From NCBI RefSeq assembly GCF_001723355.1, contig NZ_LPWE01000011.1, forward strand, positions 248,001 through 312,000: a stretch of DNA of 64,000 nucleotides, in the 5' to 3' direction. Below are positions 17,719 through 34,667 of this stretch, piece after piece (the first letter of the stretch is position 1; each line of letters starts with the position of its first letter). The DNA is from Methyloceanibacter stevinii (GTDB taxonomy: Bacteria > Pseudomonadota > Alphaproteobacteria > Rhizobiales > Methyloligellaceae). Both the position numbers and the translations under genes were made by a program. Below the pieces are notes generated by a model that saw only the letters and a list, made by a program, of their open reading frames with translations, ran no database searches and was not told where the DNA came from.

Positions 17719-17751
17719 TGTCGGGGTTCCGACATTGTCTGGGGTCTGACA
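17719..17751. promoter_or_regulatory. Two tandem NifA upstream activator sequences
   Basis: TGTCGGGGTTCCGACA (17719-17734) and TGTCTGGGGTCTGACA (17736-17751) both match TGT-N10-ACA exactly and are separated by one base. They start only eight bases after the nifA stop codon and lie about 60-90 bases upstream of the weak -24/-12 element that precedes the ferredoxin gene. Confidence 0.8.
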
Positions 17752-23921: not shown

Positions 23922-23937
23922 TGTGACGCCCACGACA
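23922..23937. promoter_or_regulatory. NifA upstream activator sequence, distal site of nifB
   Basis: TGTGACGCCCACGACA matches TGT-N10-ACA exactly. It lies 116 bases upstream of the nifB -24/-12 promoter, a usual NifA distance. Confidence 0.75.
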
Positions 23938-23980
23938 ATGTCGCTTTTCGCACAGCCACAGCTTCAGCGCCAATCGCCGA

Positions 23981-23996
23981 TGTCGGCATCGCGACA
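23981..23996. promoter_or_regulatory. NifA upstream activator sequence, proximal site of nifB
   Basis: TGTCGGCATCGCGACA matches TGT-N10-ACA exactly and lies 57 bases upstream of the nifB -24 element, 59 bases after the distal site. Confidence 0.75.
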
Positions 23997-24052: not shown

Positions 24053-24068
24053 TGGCACGCGAGTTGCG
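24053..24068 (+). promoter_or_regulatory. Sigma-54 promoter of nifB
   Basis: TGGCACGCGAGTTGCG matches the consensus TGGCACG-N4-TTGC with GG and GC ten bases apart. Transcription should start near 24080, about 70 bases before the nifB ATG. Confidence 0.88.
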
Positions 24069-24147: not shown

Positions 24148-25709
24148 ATGGACGGATTGATTGAGCAGCCCGAGACCGAAACGGCGGAAGCCGTCTCGGA
24201 AATGGACGACATCATGCAGAAGATTGCCGAGCACAAAGGCTGCGGCACCAGCGGCGGCGACGGAAAGGCCAGTTGCGGCACGGGCGCGGCGAAACGGACC
24301 TGCCGCCGGAAATCTGGGAGAAGGTCAAGAACCATCCCTGTTACAGCGAAGAGGCGCATCATCACTATGCGCGCATGCATGTGGCGGTCGCGCCTGCCTG
24401 CAACATTCAATGCAATTACTGCAATCGCAAATACGATTGCGCGAACGAGTCGCGCCCGGGCGTGGTCAGCGAACGCCTGAGCCCGGAACAAGCGACCAAG
24501 AAGGTCCTGGCTGTCGCCTCCACCATTCCGCAGATGACGGTGCTCGGCATCGCCGGACCGGGCGATGCGCTGGCGAACCCCGCCAAGACATTCAAGACGT
24601 TCGAAATGATCATGGAGACGGCGCCCGACATTAAGCTGTGCCTGTCGACGAATGGTTTGGCGCTGCCCGACTATGTCGACGAGATCGCGAAGTACAACGT
24701 CGACCACGTCACGATCACCATCAACATGGTCGATCCCGAGGTCGGCGCGAAGATTTATCCCTGGATCTTCTGGGACCACAAGCGCGTCACCGGAGTCGAG
24801 GCTTCCAGGATCTTGAGCGAGCGTCAGCTCAAGGGGCTCGAAATGCTCTCGGAGCGGGGCATTCTCTGCAAGGTCAACTCGGTGATGATCCCGGGTATCA
24901 ACGACGAGCATCTCGTCGAGGTGAACAAGGCCGTGAAGTCGCGCGGCGCCTTCCTGCACAACATCATGCCGCTCATCTCCGCACCGGAGCATGGCACCGT
25001 CTTCGGCCTGAACGGCCAGCGCGGACCCTCGGCGCAGGAGCTGAAGGCACTCCAAGATGCCTGCGAAGGTGAGATGAACATGATGCGGCACTGCCGTCAG
25101 TGCCGAGCCGATGCCGTCGGTCTTCTCGGTGAAGACCGCAGCGCCGAGTTCACCACCGAGAAGATCATGGAGATGGACGTCGAATACGACCTCTCCTCGC
25201 GTCAGGCCTACCAAGCCAAGGTGGAAGAGGAGCGGCAGGCAACTGTCTCGGCGAAGAAGGACGAGCTTGAGTCGCTCGCCGGCGAGCACAGCGACATCAA
25301 TATCCTCATCGCCGTCGCCACAAAGGGCGGCGGCCGCATCAACGAGCATTTCGGCCACGCCAAGGAGTTCCAGATCTACGAGGTATCGACCGCGGGCGCC
25401 AAATTCGTCGGCCACCGCCGCGTCGATCTGTACTGCCAGGGCGGCTATGGCGAGGAAGACGCGCTCGAAACGGTGATCCGCGCGATCCAAGACTGCACGG
25501 CGGTGTTCGTGTCGAAGATCGGCGGCTGCCCCAAGAACGATCTCAAGGAGGCGGGCATCGATCCGGTCGACGAATACGCCCTCGAGTTCATCGAGAAGTC
25601 GGCCATCGCCTACTTCAAGGACTATCTCGCGAAGGTGAAGAGCGGCGAGATCGAGCACACCCAACGTGACGACGCCACCATTCGCCAGGGAGCCTATATC
25701 GCCGCCTGA
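24148..25709 (+). CDS. nifB: NifB, radical SAM enzyme of FeMo-cofactor core synthesis; one frameshift
   Basis: Makes NifB-co, the 8Fe core of the nitrogenase cofactor. ATG 24148 opens a short N-terminal part ending CGTGAA; the frame changes at about 24288 and continues [17 protein letters not shown]. The radical SAM motif is CNIQCNYC, followed by [14 protein letters not shown]-terminal NifX-like cofactor-binding domain (from about residue 390, [20 protein letters not shown]) completes a protein of 520 residues if one missing base is restored (1562+1 bases). Such length and domain order are standard. It is the first gene of unit B, under two NifA sites, a sigma-54 promoter and a FixK box. Confidence 0.95.
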
Positions 25710-25814: not shown

Positions 25815-26039
25815 ATGTCCTACAAAATCGTCGCTTCGCAATGCACGGGCTGTTCGGCTTGCGAACCCGAGTGTCCCAACGTCGCCATCTACGAAAAGGG
25901 CGGCACGTTCATCATCGATCCCAAGAAGTGTACCGAGTGCATCGGCTATTTCGACACGCCGCAATGCGTTGCGGTGTGCCCCGTCGACGACACCTGCGTC
26001 ATCGACAATTCGGTCCCGCGCTATCAGCCCCCCGCCTAA
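25815..26039 (+). CDS. fdxN: 2[4Fe-4S] ferredoxin, FdxN type (downstream of nifB)
   Basis: A 74-residue electron carrier with [12 protein letters not shown] and [18 protein letters not shown] cluster motifs. FdxN is regularly found directly after nifB and is thought to supply electrons for NifB or nitrogenase. ATG 25815 follows GAGAGGAACC. It is a paralog of the ferredoxin at 17990 and differs mainly by a longer C-terminal tail (ending PRYQPPA). The HesB-type gene follows after eleven bases. Confidence 0.92.
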
Positions 26040-26050
26040 GGAGGAAAGGC

Positions 26051-26389
26051 ATGAGTTTCACCGTTACACGGGCCGCCGAAAAATTTATCCGCCGACTGCT
26101 TATGTTTGACGGAGGTCCCGGAAGTGCCCTTCGTCTCGCCGTGAGCCCTGGCGGATGTTCCGGCCTTTCTGCCGAGTTCGATGTCGAAAGCGCGCCGCGC
26201 GAAGGCGACAAGCTCGTCGAGGTCGGGGATATTCGCTTCTTCCTGCCTGCCGAAAGCCGCCTGCTTCTGGAAGGCGTGACCATCGACTTCGCCGAGACGC
26301 CGACGTCCAGCGGCTTCGTCTTCCTCGATCCCAATGCCGCATCTTGCGGTTGTTCGACGGAAGACGCGGCCGAAAGCGTCGCAGGCTGA
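26051..26389 (+). CDS. HesB/IscA-type A-type Fe-S carrier (first copy)
   Basis: A-type carrier of 112 residues with the three conserved cysteines in GGCSGLSAEF and SCGCS. These proteins pass Fe-S clusters or iron to targets; next to nifB and a ferredoxin it probably helps to mature these. ATG 26051 is preceded by AAGGAGGAAAGGC, a strong ribosome site; an open frame upstream overlaps fdxN and is not used. It differs clearly from the second HesB at 43914. Confidence 0.88.
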   Translation: MSFTVTRAAEKFIRRLLMFDGGPGSALRLAVSPGGCSGLSAEFDVESAPREGDKLVEVGDIRFFLPAESRLLLEGVTIDFAETPTSSGFVFLDPNAASCGCSTEDAAESVAG

Positions 26390-26405
26390 CGGGCAGGGCA
26401 GGGCG

Positions 26406-26942
26406 ATGTCGGCGGTTCAGACCGGAGATTTGGCGGATTTCGCTCTCGACGTCACGGCGGCCGAGGCCGTTCTGGGCGGCGGGTTGCCCGCGGAAGCCGA
26501 GCAGCACCTGAACTTGGCCGGCCTCGCCTACCAAGACGACGCCCTGGCGGAGCAGCACTTGCGCGAGGCGCAATCGCTGGCGCCGGAGCACGTCGCCGTG
26601 CTGATCGGGCTCTATCGGTTCTACTTCTACAAGGGCCGTTTGGCCGACGCGCTGGGAATAGCCGAGATCTGTCTCAACAAGGCCGCCCGCGCCAACGAGC
26701 TGCCGCTCGACTGGCAGGCCGTGCGTCCCGGCGATGCGGACTTTTCCAGCTTCGAGGCGATCCTGCCGCGCTTCTATCTCTTCACGCTCAAGGGCTGCGC
26801 CTATCTGCACATGCGCCTTGGCGACACGGACGCGGGGCGCGAGATCGTCGACAAACTGCTTGAACTCGATCCGAGCGACAAGCTCGGCGCGCACGTCTTG
26901 CTGGGTGTGCTTGAGCGGATGGGGCAGGGCGATGACGACTGA
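26406..26942 (+). CDS. TPR-repeat protein of nif cluster (first copy)
   Basis: Soluble alpha-helical protein of 178 residues with tetratricopeptide-type helix pairs: HLNLAGLAYQDDALAEQHL, AVLIGLYRFYFYKGRLADA and FTLKGCAYLHMRLGDTDAG. The function is not known; TPRs usually hold protein complexes together. ATG 26406 follows CAGGGCG. The end overlaps the start of the second LRV gene by eleven bases, so the two are probably coupled. The TPR protein encoded on the minus strand at 32416 shows the same layout and many shared residues, so the two look like paralogs. Confidence 0.7.
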   Translation: MSAVQTGDLADFALDVTAAEAVLGGGLPAEAEQHLNLAGLAYQDDALAEQHLREAQSLAPEHVAVLIGLYRFYFYKGRLADALGIAEICLNKAARANELPLDWQAVRPGDADFSSFEAILPRFYLFTLKGCAYLHMRLGDTDAGREIVDKLLELDPSDKLGAHVLLGVLERMGQGDDD

Positions 26943-27762
26943 CATCCAAGAGACCCTGGATTGGCAAGGCCAAGAGATCGACTGCGGCGCTTGCGCTCAT
27001 GAGGCCCTTCGCAGCGAGGACAAATGCGAGCCTCGGAAGGCCTGCGTCCAAGACCGTTACGCGCGCCGGATCGACCGCTTCTTCGATCAGAACCCGTCGC
27101 TCGCGGACGGCTACCTCGCCCATCCCTATTTCGAACTTCGGGCCGTGGCCGCGAAACACGCAACGGTCTTCAGACTGCCCCCGCTGCTGAAGGATTCCGA
27201 GGAGACCGTGCGCTGGAGCGCGGTGCGGCGCTTGCCCTACCGCTACCTGCTCGAGCTTCGGACCGATCCTCATCGAGAGGTTCGCATTCGGATCGCTCTA
27301 ACGCTGAACGACGACGATCTGCCCTCGATGATGTACGACCCGGACTACTACGTTCGCACGGTCGTGGCCCGGCGTATCTCGCCGAAACACCTCACCTCGA
27401 TGATGCACGACAGCGAGGCGGCCGTCCGCCGTGTCGTCGTCAGCCGTGTCGAGGAACGGTTCTTGATGCAGATGGCCAATGATGCGGAACCGAGTGTGCG
27501 CCTCGAAGCCGCGCGCCGGCTGACGCCCCGTCAACTCGTTCTCCTTCGCCGCGATCCGGATTGGCGCGTTCGCTTCCACGTGGCGAGCAATATCGAGGGA
27601 GAAGCGCTCGCGGCGATGCTGGACGACAGCGATCCCGTGGTCCGGCAGCTCGTCTATGCCCGTCTCGCGCGCCCGGACAACGGTGCCGTCACGGAGGATG
27701 AGGCAACCGAAATACTGAATGCCGAAAGTCCGAAGGACGAAATGCTGGAGCGTACGTCATGA
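26932..27762 (+). CDS. LRV-type repeat protein with N-terminal 4Fe-4S motif (second copy)
   Basis: A 276-residue protein of the LRV family. The N-terminal cluster region has DCGACAHEALRSEDKCEPRKACVQD in which the spacing of four cysteines matches the first copy at 18197. About seven helical repeats follow (for example MMYDPDYYVRTVVARRISP). Both copies share RRIDRFFxQNP and LxHPYFExR, so they are paralogs. ATG 26932 lies inside the end of the TPR gene, and the stop overlaps the nifZ start (ATGA). Role unknown; protein-protein or redox function in nitrogenase maturation is an inference from location. Confidence 0.82.
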   Translation: MTTDIQETLDWQGQEIDCGACAHEALRSEDKCEPRKACVQDRYARRIDRFFDQNPSLADGYLAHPYFELRAVAAKHATVFRLPPLLKDSEETVRWSAVRRLPYRYLLELRTDPHREVRIRIALTLNDDDLPSMMYDPDYYVRTVVARRISPKHLTSMMHDSEAAVRRVVVSRVEERFLMQMANDAEPSVRLEAARRLTPRQLVLLRRDPDWRVRFHVASNIEGEALAAMLDDSDPVVRQLVYARLARPDNGAVTEDEATEILNAESPKDEMLERTS

Positions 27763-28091
27763 CGAATATCAGCCGTGACAGCAGCGTGGTCGAGATCAAT
27801 GACCCACCGACATTCAGCTACGGCGAGCGTGTGCGCTCCAGACGGACGATCCGCAACGACGGCACGTTTCCCGGCAAAGACATCGGCGAAATTCTCGCGA
27901 AGAAGGGCGAGGAGGGCTACGTCACCTCGATCGGAACCTTCCTCCAGCAGTTCTACATCTACGGCGTCGAGTTCATGGAAACGGGCTACCGGGTCGGCAT
28001 GAAGCGGAAGGAGCTCGAGTCCGTCGACAACCCGATCGAGCCGCCGAAGCCCAAAACCACGAACAAGACGAAATCGGAGGACGTAACGTGA
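27759..28091 (+). CDS. nifZ: NifZ, nitrogenase MoFe protein maturation factor
   Basis: A 110-residue protein whose central part (FSYGERVRSRRTIRNDGTFPG, GEEGYVTSIGTFLQQFYIYGVEF) is the NifZ domain. NifZ assists formation of the second P-cluster of NifDK. The C-terminal tail is lysine/proline-rich. ATG overlaps the stop of the LRV gene (ATGA), and the stop overlaps the GTG of the next gene (GTGA), so three genes are translationally coupled. A second NifZ-like protein follows directly. Confidence 0.9.
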   Translation: MTNISRDSSVVEINDPPTFSYGERVRSRRTIRNDGTFPGKDIGEILAKKGEEGYVTSIGTFLQQFYIYGVEFMETGYRVGMKRKELESVDNPIEPPKPKTTNKTKSEDVT

Positions 28092-28396
28092 GCGACCAGG
28101 ACGCGACCGAACAGTCAGAAAATGCCGCCGCCCCCGAAGCGCGTGCGCCGATGATCGAACCGCGCCTCCCCAAATACGACTGGGGGCAACGTGTTCAGGC
28201 GACGGAAAACCTCGTCAATGACGGCAGCTATCCGGACAAGGCGCCCGATGCGCTCCTGGTGAGCGCCGGCGAGAACGGTGAAATCGTTCAGGTCGGCCGG
28301 CATGAGGAATCGAACACGCCTGTCTATCTCGTCGAGTTTTCACCCGACCGCGTAGTCGGCTGCCTCGAAGAAGAAATCGTGCCGGTCGAGGCATGA
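28088..28396 (+). CDS. Second NifZ-domain protein
   Basis: A 102-residue protein. After an acidic N-terminal tail, residues 28-100 follow the NifZ pattern: YDWGQRVQATENLVNDGSYP, GENGEIVQVGRHEESNTPVY and LVEFSPDRVVGC. It is shorter than nifZ and only moderately similar to it, so it looks like a diverged tandem paralog. GTG 28088 overlaps the nifZ stop. Specific role unknown; tandem or fused NifZ domains occur in other diazotrophs. Confidence 0.75.
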   Translation: MSDQDATEQSENAAAPEARAPMIEPRLPKYDWGQRVQATENLVNDGSYPDKAPDALLVSAGENGEIVQVGRHEESNTPVYLVEFSPDRVVGCLEEEIVPVEA

Positions 28397-28430: not shown

Positions 28431-28639
28431 GTGAAGGTCATGATCCGCAAGGACTACGAAGCAAACTCTCAGCCTACGTCGCGAAGAAGGATCTCGAAGA
28501 GCCGATCGTCGCCATGGAGAAGCCCGACATGTGGGGCGGCACGGTGACGCTCGCCAATGGCTGGGAGCTCGAACTGCCCGCCATGGCGCCGGACACGTCC
28601 CTGCCGATCACGGTGAACGCAAGGCGGCTTAGTCAGTAA
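28431..28639 (+). CDS. nifT: NifT/FixU small nif protein; one frameshift
   Basis: GTG 28431 starts MKVMIRKDYEAN; the frame then changes at about 28465 to LSAYVAKKDLEEPIV and continues with WGGTVTLANGWELELP and LPITVNARRLSQ, the typical NifT sequence. The span of 209 bases plus one missing base gives 69 residues, the usual size. NifT is a small protein of unknown role normally found beside nifZ or nifK. An AATAGGAGCG ribosome site precedes GTG. Confidence 0.85.
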
Positions 28640-28641
28640 CC

Positions 28642-28914
28642 ATGGTCCTCGCTCCCGACGATATCGTGGCGATTGAAGGCTTGCTTGGCCAGGCGAAAGG
28701 CGAACCCGGCGCGGTCGATGCCGTGCGCGCGCAGTTTCCCGATCTGTCCATGACACGCTGCGATCAGTCCGACGTCGATGCGGAAGATCCCTTCCGGGAG
28801 TATCCGGACTTCAACCTCTATCTCGTCGACGGCACAGACCATTGCTGGCGTCTGACCGCGGATCCGTCCGCCGCGACCGGGATCGTCATTGCGAAGAAGT
28901 GGGGACAGTCGTGA
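28642..28914 (+). CDS. Small nif-linked protein of unknown function (DUF6129-like)
   Basis: A 90-residue protein starting MVLAPDDIVAIEGLLGQAKG, with RAQFPDLSMTRCDQSDVD and a C-terminal GIVIAKKWGQS. It resembles proteins I recall as DUF6129 in nif clusters, but I cannot verify this. It is acidic, soluble and predicted to be alpha/beta. It starts two bases after nifT and its stop overlaps the GTG start of the DegT-like gene, which supports a real, coupled gene in unit B. Confidence 0.6.
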   Translation: MVLAPDDIVAIEGLLGQAKGEPGAVDAVRAQFPDLSMTRCDQSDVDAEDPFREYPDFNLYLVDGTDHCWRLTADPSAATGIVIAKKWGQS

Positions 28915-30062
28915 AGCCAACCGACATTCCTCTGTCCGATCCCGACATCACCACGGCGGAACTCGAAGCGCTCAACGCTGTCTTGTCGTCGCCGCAGCTC
29001 TCGTCGGGTCCTGCTGTCGAAGCCTTCGAAGCGGCCTTCGCCGAATATACAGGCCGCAATTACGCGGTCGCCACCGCTAGCGGACGTCTCGCTATGATCT
29101 TGGCGCTCTACGCCCATGGAGTGGGGCCGGGCCAAGAGGTGATTGCTTCACCGTTCTCCTGGCGGGAGACGGCGGCGGCGATCGCGCACACGGGCGCCAA
29201 CACAGTCTTCGCCGACATCGACTATTGGTCGGGTACGATCACGCCGGGCAAGGTTTCCAAGGCGGTCAACGCCAGCACCTACGCGATTGTCGCCGCAAAC
29301 ACGAACGGCCACCCGGCCGCGTGGACGGAACTGCGGGAGATCGCGAAGGAGTACGGCCTCGTACTCATCGAGGATTCCACCGAGGCCATCGGCTCCGTCT
29401 ACAAGGGCGAGAAGGTCGGCAGCTTCGGCGATTGCGCGGTGTTCGATTTCTCCCAGCCCGGTCCGCTCATTTGCGGCGAGGGCGGGATGGTCGTGACGGA
29501 CGATCCGGACATTGCTTCCGCACTGCGGCGCTACCGCTCCCATGCACCCGACGAGCGAAGCTCCGTGGTGATCGGCGGCACGCCGGCCCTCGGTGCAGGG
29601 ATGAGCGATTTGGCCGCGGCGCTCGGGCTCGCGCAGCTCAATCGCATCGAGGAGATCCTCGAACGGCGCAAGCGCATCGAGCATTGGTATGCGAAGTCCG
29701 TGCAGACCTTCGAGGGAATCAAGCCGCCTTATGTGGGCCCTGACGTGGACGAGGTGCACTGGTTCCTGTTTCTCGTCCACCTCGGCACGCGCTTCACACG
29801 TTCAAGCTGCGAGGCCATTGTCGAGGACCTGCGCACCGAGAACGTCGAAGCGGCTATCTACAGCAGTCCGCTGCATCTGCAGCGCTACTATCTCGACAAG
29901 GGCTACCGCAAGGGCGACTTCTTCGTGACGGAGAAAGTCGCAGACCGTGCCGTAGCTCTGCCGTTCCATATCCATTTAACCGAAGAGCAGATCAGCTTCC
30001 TCGTTTCGACGATGAAGGACGCGTCCATCAATGTGGGCGCGGGCGCTGCGATTTACCTGTGA
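28911..30062 (+). CDS. DegT/DnrJ/EryC1-family protein lacking the PLP lysine
   Basis: A 383-residue protein of the sugar-aminotransferase-like DegT fold (fold type I). N-terminal SGPAVEAFEAAFAEYTGR, the PLP-ring Asp in LIEDSTEAIGS (Asp155) and GEGG (189-192) fit the family. In active members a Lys five residues before GEGG binds PLP; here that stretch is SQPGPLICGEGG and the position is Gly184. The enzyme therefore probably cannot be a normal aminotransferase. DegT-like genes occur in some nif clusters, role unknown. GTG 28911 overlaps the previous stop. The following ferredoxin starts 15 bases later. Confidence 0.75.
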   Translation: MKPTDIPLSDPDITTAELEALNAVLSSPQLSSGPAVEAFEAAFAEYTGRNYAVATASGRLAMILALYAHGVGPGQEVIASPFSWRETAAAIAHTGANTVFADIDYWSGTITPGKVSKAVNASTYAIVAANTNGHPAAWTELREIAKEYGLVLIEDSTEAIGSVYKGEKVGSFGDCAVFDFSQPGPLICGEGGMVVTDDPDIASALRRYRSHAPDERSSVVIGGTPALGAGMSDLAAALGLAQLNRIEEILERRKRIEHWYAKSVQTFEGIKPPYVGPDVDEVHWFLFLVHLGTRFTRSSCEAIVEDLRTENVEAAIYSSPLHLQRYYLDKGYRKGDFFVTEKVADRAVALPFHIHLTEEQISFLVSTMKDASINVGAGAAIYL

Positions 30063-30077: not shown

Positions 30078-30381
30078 ATGCCAACACTGACCATCATGCC
30101 GTCAGGAAGACTATCGAAGCAAATGAGGCGCAACTGTTCTCGAAGTGCTGCTCGGCGCCGGTGAGCCGATCAACCACAAATGCGATGGAAAGGCCGAATG
30201 CGGCTCCTGTCACATCTTCGTGCAGGAAGGCCGCAAGGGCATTTCCCGGATGACCCCTGAAGAGAACGCCAAGCTCGATACGATTATCGGTGTCGGCTCC
30301 AAGTCGCGACTGGCCTGCCAGATCACGCTGGGGACCGAGCCGGTGACGGTGGAGCTGCTTGGCGAGTTTTCGGGATTCTAA
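30078..30381 (+). CDS. Plant-type 2Fe-2S ferredoxin; two frameshifts
   Basis: ATG 30078 (preceded by AGAAGGGCTGGGC) begins MPTLTIMPSG, continues KTIEANE in a second frame from about 30110 and TVLEVLLGAGEPINHKC in a third from about 30137. The cluster motif is CDGKAECGSC with a fourth Cys in RLACQITLG. Two missing bases give 101 residues (304+2 bases), typical of 2Fe-2S ferredoxins. It is one of several ferredoxins in the island and lies in the poorly known part of unit B, so it may serve NifB, a neighbour enzyme or nitrogenase. Confidence 0.8.
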
Positions 30382-30401: not shown

Positions 30402-30668
30402 ATGGCTAAGGAAGAGAAGACAGAGACGGACGAGGCCGCGGAAGCGGCGCCGGCCAAACCGGCTGTCACGATGATCCACGTGCGGTTCTCTGCCGACGGC
30501 AGCGTGAGCGAAATCGGTGAGCGCCCAACGGGCCTCACGCCGCAGGACTGGTTCAACCGGTTGAGCGACAAGGCGGGCACGAAATTCCAGCCGCTCTCGG
30601 GCGGGCGGGGCATTTTCCGTCTCCCGCCGGAAGAAGTCGAAGTGCTCAAGACGATGACTGCGAACTAG
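30402..30668 (+). CDS. Small nif-linked protein of unknown function
   Basis: An 88-residue protein. An acidic, alanine-rich N terminus (about 20 residues) precedes a compact region with TMIHVRFSADGSVSEIGERP, LTPQDWFNRLSDKAG and GGRGIFRLPPEEVEVL. I do not recognise a family. AGAGGAGCC precedes ATG 30402. It lies between the 2Fe-2S ferredoxin and the SIR2-like gene with short gaps, so it is part of unit B. A small partner or adaptor is possible but not shown. Confidence 0.6.
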   Translation: MAKEEKTETDEAAEAAPAKPAVTMIHVRFSADGSVSEIGERPTGLTPQDWFNRLSDKAGTKFQPLSGGRGIFRLPPEEVEVLKTMTAN

Positions 30669-30697: not shown

Positions 30698-31624
30698 ATG
30701 TCGGCTGAACTGATCGATGAAATCCGCGCGGCCTTCGACGAAGGCCTCGCGATCCCGTATCTCGGACCTGGCGTGCTGGAACTGGCGGGAGACGCCTGCA
30801 CCGTTCCAGCCTCACCGGGCGCGCTTGTCGCGCGGCTCACCGAGAAGGCCAGCGTGCCGCATAAGATTCGCGACAATCTGACGGCGGCGGCGCAGTTCAT
30901 CGAAAACTTCAAGCACCGCAACACGGTGAAGGCCGCGATGACCGAAGCCTTCACCAGCGAGATGGAGCCGACGGATTTTCACCGCTATCTGGCGGCGCTA
31001 CCGAGCTGCCGCTGCTGGTTCATGCCTGGTACGACGATCTCCCCAACAAAGCGCTGGCAAGCCGTTCCGAGCCTTTGGGGCACTGCCCAGGGGATCAGCC
31101 AGACGGAGCACTACGGCCATTGGATTCACTATTTCGAATCGGACGCTACGCTCCTGCCAAATCCGCCGGAAAGTAAGTTCAGCGTCGAGAGTTGCGCCCC
31201 GGCGATGGCGCCGGACGAAGTGAAGCGCTGGGCGACGCTGCTTTACGAACCGCTGGGATCGATCGCGCCGGCACAGAACTATCTCGTCTCGGATACGGAC
31301 TTTGTCGAAGTGCTGACGGAGATCGACATTCAGACGCCGGTGCCCGAGCCCGTGCGCGACATCCGGAAGGGAAGGCATTTCCTATTCCTCGGATGCCGGT
31401 TCGGCAAACAGCTCGACCGGCTTTGGGCCCGGCAAGTTTCGAAGCGATCTTCCGACTTTCATTGGGCGGTGCTCCCGGGCGAGTTGACGAAGAACGAACT
31501 GCGCTTCCTCGAAGAGAAGAACATCAAGCGCATCGACATGACGCTCGAGGCGTTCGCCGAAGCGCTCATGGGAGGCGGCGCGAAGGTGGAAACCCAACAA
31601 CCCGAAATGGCGCTTGGCGCCTAA
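30698..31624 (+). CDS. SIR2-like protein of nif cluster; internal stretch read in wrong frame
   Basis: A 308-residue soluble protein resembling SIR2-like proteins found in some nif clusters: an N-terminal IPYLGPGVLELAG loop and FLFLGCRFGKQLDRLW later recall the SIR2_2 type nucleotide-binding fold. Canonical sirtuin catalytic residues are not obvious, so NAD-dependent deacylation should not be assumed. Between about 31003 and 31070 the ORF reads SCRCWFMPGTTISPT, but the neighbouring frame reads ELPLLVHAWYDDLPNKALAS, which looks native; a base loss followed by a compensating change is likely. GGCGGACGA precedes ATG 30698. Confidence 0.6.
   Translation: MSAELIDEIRAAFDEGLAIPYLGPGVLELAGDACTVPASPGALVARLTEKASVPHKIRDNLTAAAQFIENFKHRNTVKAAMTEAFTSEMEPTDFHRYLAALPSCRCWFMPGTTISPTKRWQAVPSLWGTAQGISQTEHYGHWIHYFESDATLLPNPPESKFSVESCAPAMAPDEVKRWATLLYEPLGSIAPAQNYLVSDTDFVEVLTEIDIQTPVPEPVRDIRKGRHFLFLGCRFGKQLDRLWARQVSKRSSDFHWAVLPGELTKNELRFLEEKNIKRIDMTLEAFAEALMGGGAKVETQQPEMALGA

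Positions 31625-33587: not shown

Positions 33588-34667
<1,080 letters not shown>

Follow-up and report, generated by a model that had tools for sequence, protein, structure and literature searches.

A DegT-family gene in a nifB operon was found to encode a protein without the Schiff-base lysine of aminotransferases. Since all nif-linked relatives examined have lost this lysine and rebuilt the surrounding pocket, the protein is probably a nitrogenase accessory protein. On balance, we favour a nif-specific pseudo-aminotransferase that would act in nitrogenase maturation or protection without PLP transamination; for such a role, the evidence is the neighbouring genes. The DNA analysed, here called the window, is a stretch of 64,000 nucleotides, and all coordinates refer to it unless a locus is named. 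The gene and its relevant parts are located as follows:

28911–30062, + strand: DegT-fold gene without the Schiff-base Lys, 383 amino acids, GTG start, open frame, stop ending at 30062
29373–29384, + strand: codons Asp155-Ser156-Thr157-Glu158; PLP-ring Asp kept, Ser156 and Glu158 fixed in the nif clade
29445–29483, + strand: codons Asp179 to Gly191; Asp179 at the position of the phosphate Ser, residue 184 at that of the Schiff-base Lys
30030–30059, + strand: C-terminal tail NVGAGAAIYL, near-invariant in the nif clade

The GTG start overlaps the preceding stop codon by four bases (GTGA). Profile search placed the protein in PF01041 (DegT_DnrJ_EryC1; 308.8 bits versus a cut-off of 19.8, residues 12–368). 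With NCBIfam, it stayed below the cut-off of all 11 models matched, the best of which was PseC (234.9 versus 423.5 bits). By sequence, GDP-perosamine synthase and ArnB were the best solved chains. Structure prediction, which had been proposed as a check in an earlier note on this DNA, gave an AlphaFold model with a predicted aminotransferase fold (mean pLDDT 90.8, pTM 0.90). In Foldseek, ArnB (8snj) came first, closely followed in E-value by GDP-perosamine synthase (3bn1). VIA-align 2 placed 3bn1 first (Z 50.0, rmsd 1.8, 364 residues), followed by PseC and a metagenomic sugar transaminase (47.3) and ArnB 1mdx (47.0). The three annotated records that name the nif-linked gene give aminotransferase as product. 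As every nif-linked copy examined lacks the defining residue, the naming amounts to a systematic misannotation, which metabolic models may inherit.

Nif-linked homologues were collected mainly by a scan of named genomes, in which at least 555 stretches contained the peptide pattern of the clade and an encoded relative at E <= 1e-3. The best 80 of these at least 555 stretches were analysed (63–71% identity; hosts: 79 Pseudomonadota and one MAG labelled Fibrobacterota), and more distant members were taken from genome and plasmid samples. Together with 17 others, the 80 gave 97 nif-linked rows (94 distinct; 47% identity and up), the window's own included. Some G-labelled loci are probably from the same genomes as named loci, and the 97 rows are therefore not 97 independent genomes; L033 and L056 have identical contig positions. 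The joint alignment consisted of the 97 nif loci with the window again as query (98 rows) and, as controls, 30 ordinary DegT homologues from searches of the own genome, congeners and the order.

Two congeners carry copies 98% and 94% identical to that of the window. The order sample (397 genomes) yielded 11 matches at E <= 1e-50, nine of which were nif-type (E <= 1e-150); the two others (L038, L039) are ordinary DegT proteins with Lys. Six matches were obtained from the phylum sample (398 genomes) and four from the class sample (385 genomes; E <= 1e-55, own genome in each), with five further carriers (G516, G623, G504, G1070 and G802). In all three samples, scoring was restricted to the four or five top first-look candidates of each genome. 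Plasmid records gave 12 matches. Four were nif-type (one from Methylococcus, two from Paraburkholderia and a frame-split one from Bradyrhizobium), and the other eight, 29–36% identical, were left out of the comparison. The Bradyrhizobium copy (L047, 12001–13117, plasmid of Bradyrhizobium sp. BWA-3-5) matches as two pieces in different frames and is unannotated. A nif operon piece with a DegT gene 67% identical was present in a MAG labelled Chitinivibrionia (L051), which is likely a misbinned proteobacterial contig. Overall, the nif-linked family occurs in nifB operons of Bradyrhizobium, Xanthobacter, Methylocystis, Nitrospirillum, Methylococcus and others.

The active-site stretch of the window protein reads AVFDFSQPGPLICGEGGMVVTD. 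In alignments with GDP-perosamine synthase, Gly184 was aligned to the Lys of 3bn1 and to the Ala of 3dr4 (K186A mutant according to the entry title), and Asp155 to the Asp that holds the pyridine nitrogen. A misaligned motif at 184 was rejected, as the alignment is without gaps around the site and the Ala of the K186A entry lies on residue 184. The Schiff-base Lys was present at column 184 in 0/97 nif-linked rows versus 30/30 ordinary DegT homologues. The earlier note had read Gly184 as a missing lysine and normal transamination as unlikely; the first reading was borne out, and with Lys missing in all 97 rows, normal transamination is very unlikely. For the same reason, an isolated loss in the window's copy, which the note had considered, was rejected. 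Its second concern, a nearby Lys in the pocket, found no support by sequence: no replacement Lys or His occurs in residues 176–192 of any of the 97 rows. Invariance of Gly184 was contradicted. Residue 184 is distributed as G31 S21 L14 F7 V3 A2 M2 in the best 80 of at least 555 loci and as G8 S5 L1 F1 A1 Q1 in the other 17 rows. With eight different residues found here (G, S, L, F, A, V, M, Q), the position is free, and "Gly184" does not represent a motif. Columns with Lys in at least 80% of the 97 nif rows are 114, 271, 342 and 369 only, and by spacing none of them matches the Spr1654 cofactor contacts named in the available part of PMC5936713. Column 188 is the sole column with Cys in at least half of the 97 rows.

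For the remaining pocket, contacts of Spr1654 given in the available part of PMC5936713 were used: Lys199 (aldimine), Asp170 (ring nitrogen), His173 (O3'), Ser194 and Thr59 (phosphate), Glu205 and Gly206 (through water) and Tyr84 (ring). By spacing from Lys199, positions 199, 170, 173, 194, 205 and 206 correspond to window residues 184, 155, 158, 179, 190 and 191. Thr59 and Tyr84 correspond to residues 59 and 84, because the Spr1654 insertion 150–164, as described in that part of the source, lies between. According to this mapping, the nif rows have lost the Lys, carry an acid in place of the phosphate Ser and have Glu as O3' partner. Residue 179 is Asp in 98/98 nif rows (window counted twice, here and in all counts of 98) versus Ser in 29/30 controls. 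Likewise, residue 130 is Asn (98/98) versus His or Asp (30/30), residue 156 Ser (98/98) versus Ala or Cys (30/30), and residue 158 Glu (98/98 versus 3/30). In the best 80 of at least 555 loci, D155, E158, D179 and P183 were each found in 80/80 and C188 in 79/80. D155 is kept in 98/98 nif rows and GEGG in most; other PLP contacts are kept at Thr59 (87/98; Arg in the window's genus), Glu190 (88/98) and the aromatic residue at 84 (97/98). The pocket described earlier as kept is thus kept in part: Asp155 and GEGG stood, whereas the phosphate Ser is Asp in 97/97 rows and the O3' contact Glu in 97/97. Residue 228, in a loop that we take to reach the other subunit, is Asn in 4/98 nif rows versus 25/30 controls. 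The acid facing the phosphate should weaken PLP binding. Given the retained D155, Thr59, Glu190 and aromatic residue 84, PLP or PMP could still bind, and Lys-to-Ala mutants have been crystallised with PLP (4oca and 3nys, according to the entry titles).

In total, 27 columns have a residue that is fixed in at least 95% of the nif rows and shared by no more than 3/30 controls, N130, S156, E158, D179, P183, K271, H290 and R294 among them. Such focused fixation is more than the decay of an unused site. It argues for a rebuilt pocket that is a new working site, in which an acidic cluster of D155, E158 and D179 together with N130 and S156 would bind a metal, a cofactor precursor or a metabolite and either catalyse a reaction or deliver to nitrogenase; the nif rows have no conserved cysteine set, which speaks against this, and we regard it as possible but unlikely. 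A bolder form, to which we give a similarly small chance, is a cleft converted once, whose residues D155, E158, D179, N130 and S156 might bind a metal, a homocitrate-like metabolite or a cofactor precursor, the protein then being, with DUF6129, a delivery or repair factor in part of the diazotrophs. If true, a fold-type I protein would handle metalloclusters or metabolites instead of PLP chemistry.

For phylogeny, a quick tree of 124 rows (94 nif versus 30 controls) was calculated, in which the nif rows formed one branch (SH-aLRT 100). Rows identical after trimming had been dropped (128 to 124), and the program warned of long branches, most of them among the controls. The dN/dS of the DegT gene was 0.050 and 0.066 versus the two congeners, and the nif-linked clade is, judged by sequence comparison, under purifying selection. 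The SIR2-like gene of the same operon had a dN/dS of 0.29 versus one congener, above DegT, DUF6129 and LRV in the same comparison (window's genus); DUF6129 and SIR2 were each compared with one relative only. A decaying, functionless aminotransferase remnant would agree with the lost Lys, the split Bradyrhizobium plasmid copy (L047) and the three genomes of one genus that have the operon without the DegT gene. This reading is very improbable, as the dN/dS of 0.05–0.07 and the 27 clade-specific fixed columns over 97 rows at 47% identity and up argue against it, and selection and conservation data contradict it for the clade as a whole.

The C-terminal tail is near-invariant, with N374, G376, A377, G378 and I381 kept in 96/97 nif rows. 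Residues 378–383 are at the same time the only stretch of at least three residues with pLDDT < 50 in the model. A tail that is conserved but without a confident place suggests folding on a partner or on the other subunit.

As the earlier note had stated, the gene lies in a nif operon with nifT, ferredoxin and SIR2-like neighbours. The operon and its upstream sites comprise:

23922–23996, + strand: three TGT-N10-ACA sites (NifA upstream activator type) before nifB
24053–24067, + strand: sigma-54 -24/-12 promoter-like site, exact, upstream of nifB
24273–25709, + strand: nifB (TIGR01290, 690 bits; start codon provisional)
25815–26039, + strand: 4Fe-4S ferredoxin, fdxN-like (profile search)
26051–26389, + strand: IscA-like iron-sulfur accessory protein (named from the annotated relative L045)
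26406–26942, + strand: TPR protein (profile search; start chosen inside ORF 26334–26942)
26932–27762, + strand: 4Fe-4S leucine-rich/HEAT repeat (LRV) protein (PF05484)
27759–28091, + strand: first NifZ-like gene (named from L045; without NCBIfam match)
28088–28396, + strand: second NifZ gene (PF04319)
28431–28639, + strand: nifT, read in two frames in the window
28642–28914, + strand: DUF6129 protein, 90 amino acids (21.6 bits, slightly below the 23.6 required by Pfam)
30078–30381, + strand: 2Fe-2S ferredoxin, read in more than one frame in the window
30402–30668, + strand: small conserved protein (hyp88)
30698–31624, + strand: SIR2-like protein (PF13289)

For nifT and the 2Fe-2S ferredoxin, two congeners gave one unbroken match each to the pieces searched, and assembly error is as likely as real damage. 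Regulatory sites were searched with the consensus forms of sigma-54 promoters and NifA sites. The window contains four exact sigma-54 matches, and the next one after 24053–24067 is at 33602, before nifH. With at most one mismatch, six matches were found versus 3.98 expected; 22/100 shuffles had as many, which is not above chance. TGT-N10-ACA sites numbered 12 versus 4.96 expected, and 0/100 shuffles had as many. Some of these sites are paired (17719–17751 and 23922–23954).

For neighbourhood analysis, the 80 loci were probed with about 20 gene queries. Unprobed genes can therefore lie between probed neighbours, and many loci end at contig ends. Upstream, DUF6129 was the next probed gene in 80/80 of the best 80 of at least 555 loci. 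Downstream, the next probed gene in the same set was the 2Fe-2S ferredoxin in 66, hyp88 in 7 and nifH in 2, with none in 5; nifZ was present in 79, the SIR2-like gene in 72, nifB in 66 and a nifS-like gene in 52. The 4-base start-stop overlap of the DegT gene was found in 27/63 scorable loci (17 of the 80 were without a start by rule). As an exclusive partner of DegT, DUF6129 was rejected in one direction, since it is also present without DegT: the DUF6129 model was above cut-off in 22/68 nifB genomes of the order, three of them carriers and the rest among the genomes without the DegT gene (19/59). The model missed DUF6129 in carriers G013, G259 and G266, where BLAST finds it, and passed in 1/14 control genomes. 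The predicted DUF6129 structure is fairly confident (pLDDT 86.9). It had no Foldseek match at E <= 0.001, and the best VIA-align 2 match among 485 chains had Z 3.0; these searches show no relation either way. In 50 DUF6129 rows, His67 and Cys68 are invariant and Cys40 is nearly so.

As a fixed partner of DegT, the 2Fe-2S ferredoxin holds only partly across loci; L166–L168 are among the loci with DegT in which no ferredoxin was detected. In three loci of one genus (L161–L163), the nifB operon is the same except that DegT and ferredoxin are both missing between DUF6129 and hyp88; neither gene was found in this gap at E <= 10. These loci represent a natural deletion useful for physiological comparison. 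At L159 (12153–13390), the match for sufS in congener G014 is split into two overlapping pieces, frameshift-like.

One alternative is an enzyme that depends on PLP or PMP and resembles E1, ColD and SpnQ; it would perform Lys-free sugar 3-dehydratase chemistry with PMP and electrons from the 2Fe-2S ferredoxin encoded next to it. E1, ColD and SpnQ are Lys-less DegT-type relatives, and SpnQ can use electrons of a ferredoxin pair (available part of PMC8987622). In the loci studied here, the ferredoxin is the next probed gene downstream in 66/80 (best 80 of at least 555), and DegT and ferredoxin are missing together at this place in the three nif genomes of one genus. However, the His of E1/ColD/SpnQ at the Lys position is absent from 97/97 nif rows, only column 188 is Cys-rich versus four cluster cysteines in E1 and SpnQ, the phosphate Ser is Asp in 97/97, and some loci have DegT with no ferredoxin detected. 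We consider such an enzyme improbable.

Slightly less probable still is a Lys-free partner subunit that, as SPT1 does for SPT2, supports a Lys-bearing fold-type I enzyme elsewhere, either another DegT or NifS. NifS belongs to another class of fold-type I enzymes, which counts against it as the supported enzyme, although nifS-like genes occur in 52/80 (best 80 of at least 555 loci). One other DegT, of the ordinary type with Lys, was found in the own genome, but its gene sits on another contig; in addition, no second DegT gene was detected in any of the best 80 of at least 555 loci, as far as the loci reach. SPT1 itself, according to the available part of PMC6148460, is without Lys and yet needed for activity.

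For distribution in the order, carrier and nifB counts were treated as coming from the same 397 genomes, based on the equal number and agreeing labels. NifB was above cut-off in 68/397 genomes. All nine DegT carriers had nifB (9/9), and 9/68 nifB genomes carried the DegT gene, which in 8/9 carriers lay 3.1–3.4 kb from the nifB match on the same contig (different contigs in G365). The remaining 59/68 nifB genomes are without it. Thus, no general step of cofactor assembly needs the DegT protein, which is most likely accessory and not essential.

Taken as a pseudo-aminotransferase of nitrogenase maturation or protection, the reading we prefer, a protein of DegT fold that, like the solved relatives, is probably a dimer would have been recruited, presumably once, into a nifB operon of the NifA/sigma-54 type. 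There it would have lost the Schiff-base Lys, and the cup for the PLP phosphate would have become an acidic site, with PLP probably no longer in use. Made together with DUF6129, the protein may serve as scaffold or chaperone whose old cofactor cleft holds a protein partner or small ligand, and the near-invariant flexible C-terminal tail would be the likely contact.

No description of the nif-linked DegT gene was found in the portion of the literature searched. A paper on Zymomonas includes a SIR2-like gene among those of the nif cluster (PMC8594446, available part). Supplementary files aside, the word DegT is absent from the available text of this paper and of those on Paraburkholderia phymatum (PMC8305402) and Azoarcus (PMC3916325). 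Nif-linked DegT is a coherent and apparently unstudied family. Knowing what it does might account for some of the accessory genes that these nif clusters carry beyond the minimal ones, and would provide a clear example of an aminotransferase fold with a function independent of PLP.

Compared with known systems, the window protein has a predicted whole-chain fold in common with GDP-perosamine synthase, ArnB, PseC and Spr1654 (PF01041, fold type I). The PLP-ring Asp and, in most nif rows, GEGG are common to both the clade and the sugar aminotransferases. Unlike these, the nif clade is without the Schiff-base Lys, has Asp at the phosphate Ser and carries an extra near-invariant C-terminal tail. 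NifT, nifZ, DUF6129 and LRV are accessory genes of unknown or partial function in the same operon and belong to other protein families. In the nucleotide-sugar 3-dehydratases E1, ColD and SpnQ, the catalytic Lys is replaced as in the nif clade, but these enzymes have His and PMP chemistry, whereas the nif clade has no fixed residue at 184 and no four-Cys set; as far as covered by the available part of PMC8987622, this comparison implies that Lys loss alone does not end PLP/PMP chemistry. SPT1 (LCB1) of serine palmitoyltransferase is a Lys-less fold-type I subunit that is still required. It pairs with a Lys-bearing paralogue, whereas none was detected beside the nif DegT gene as far as the loci reach; by this comparison, within the available part of PMC6148460, a Lys-free subunit can serve a partner.
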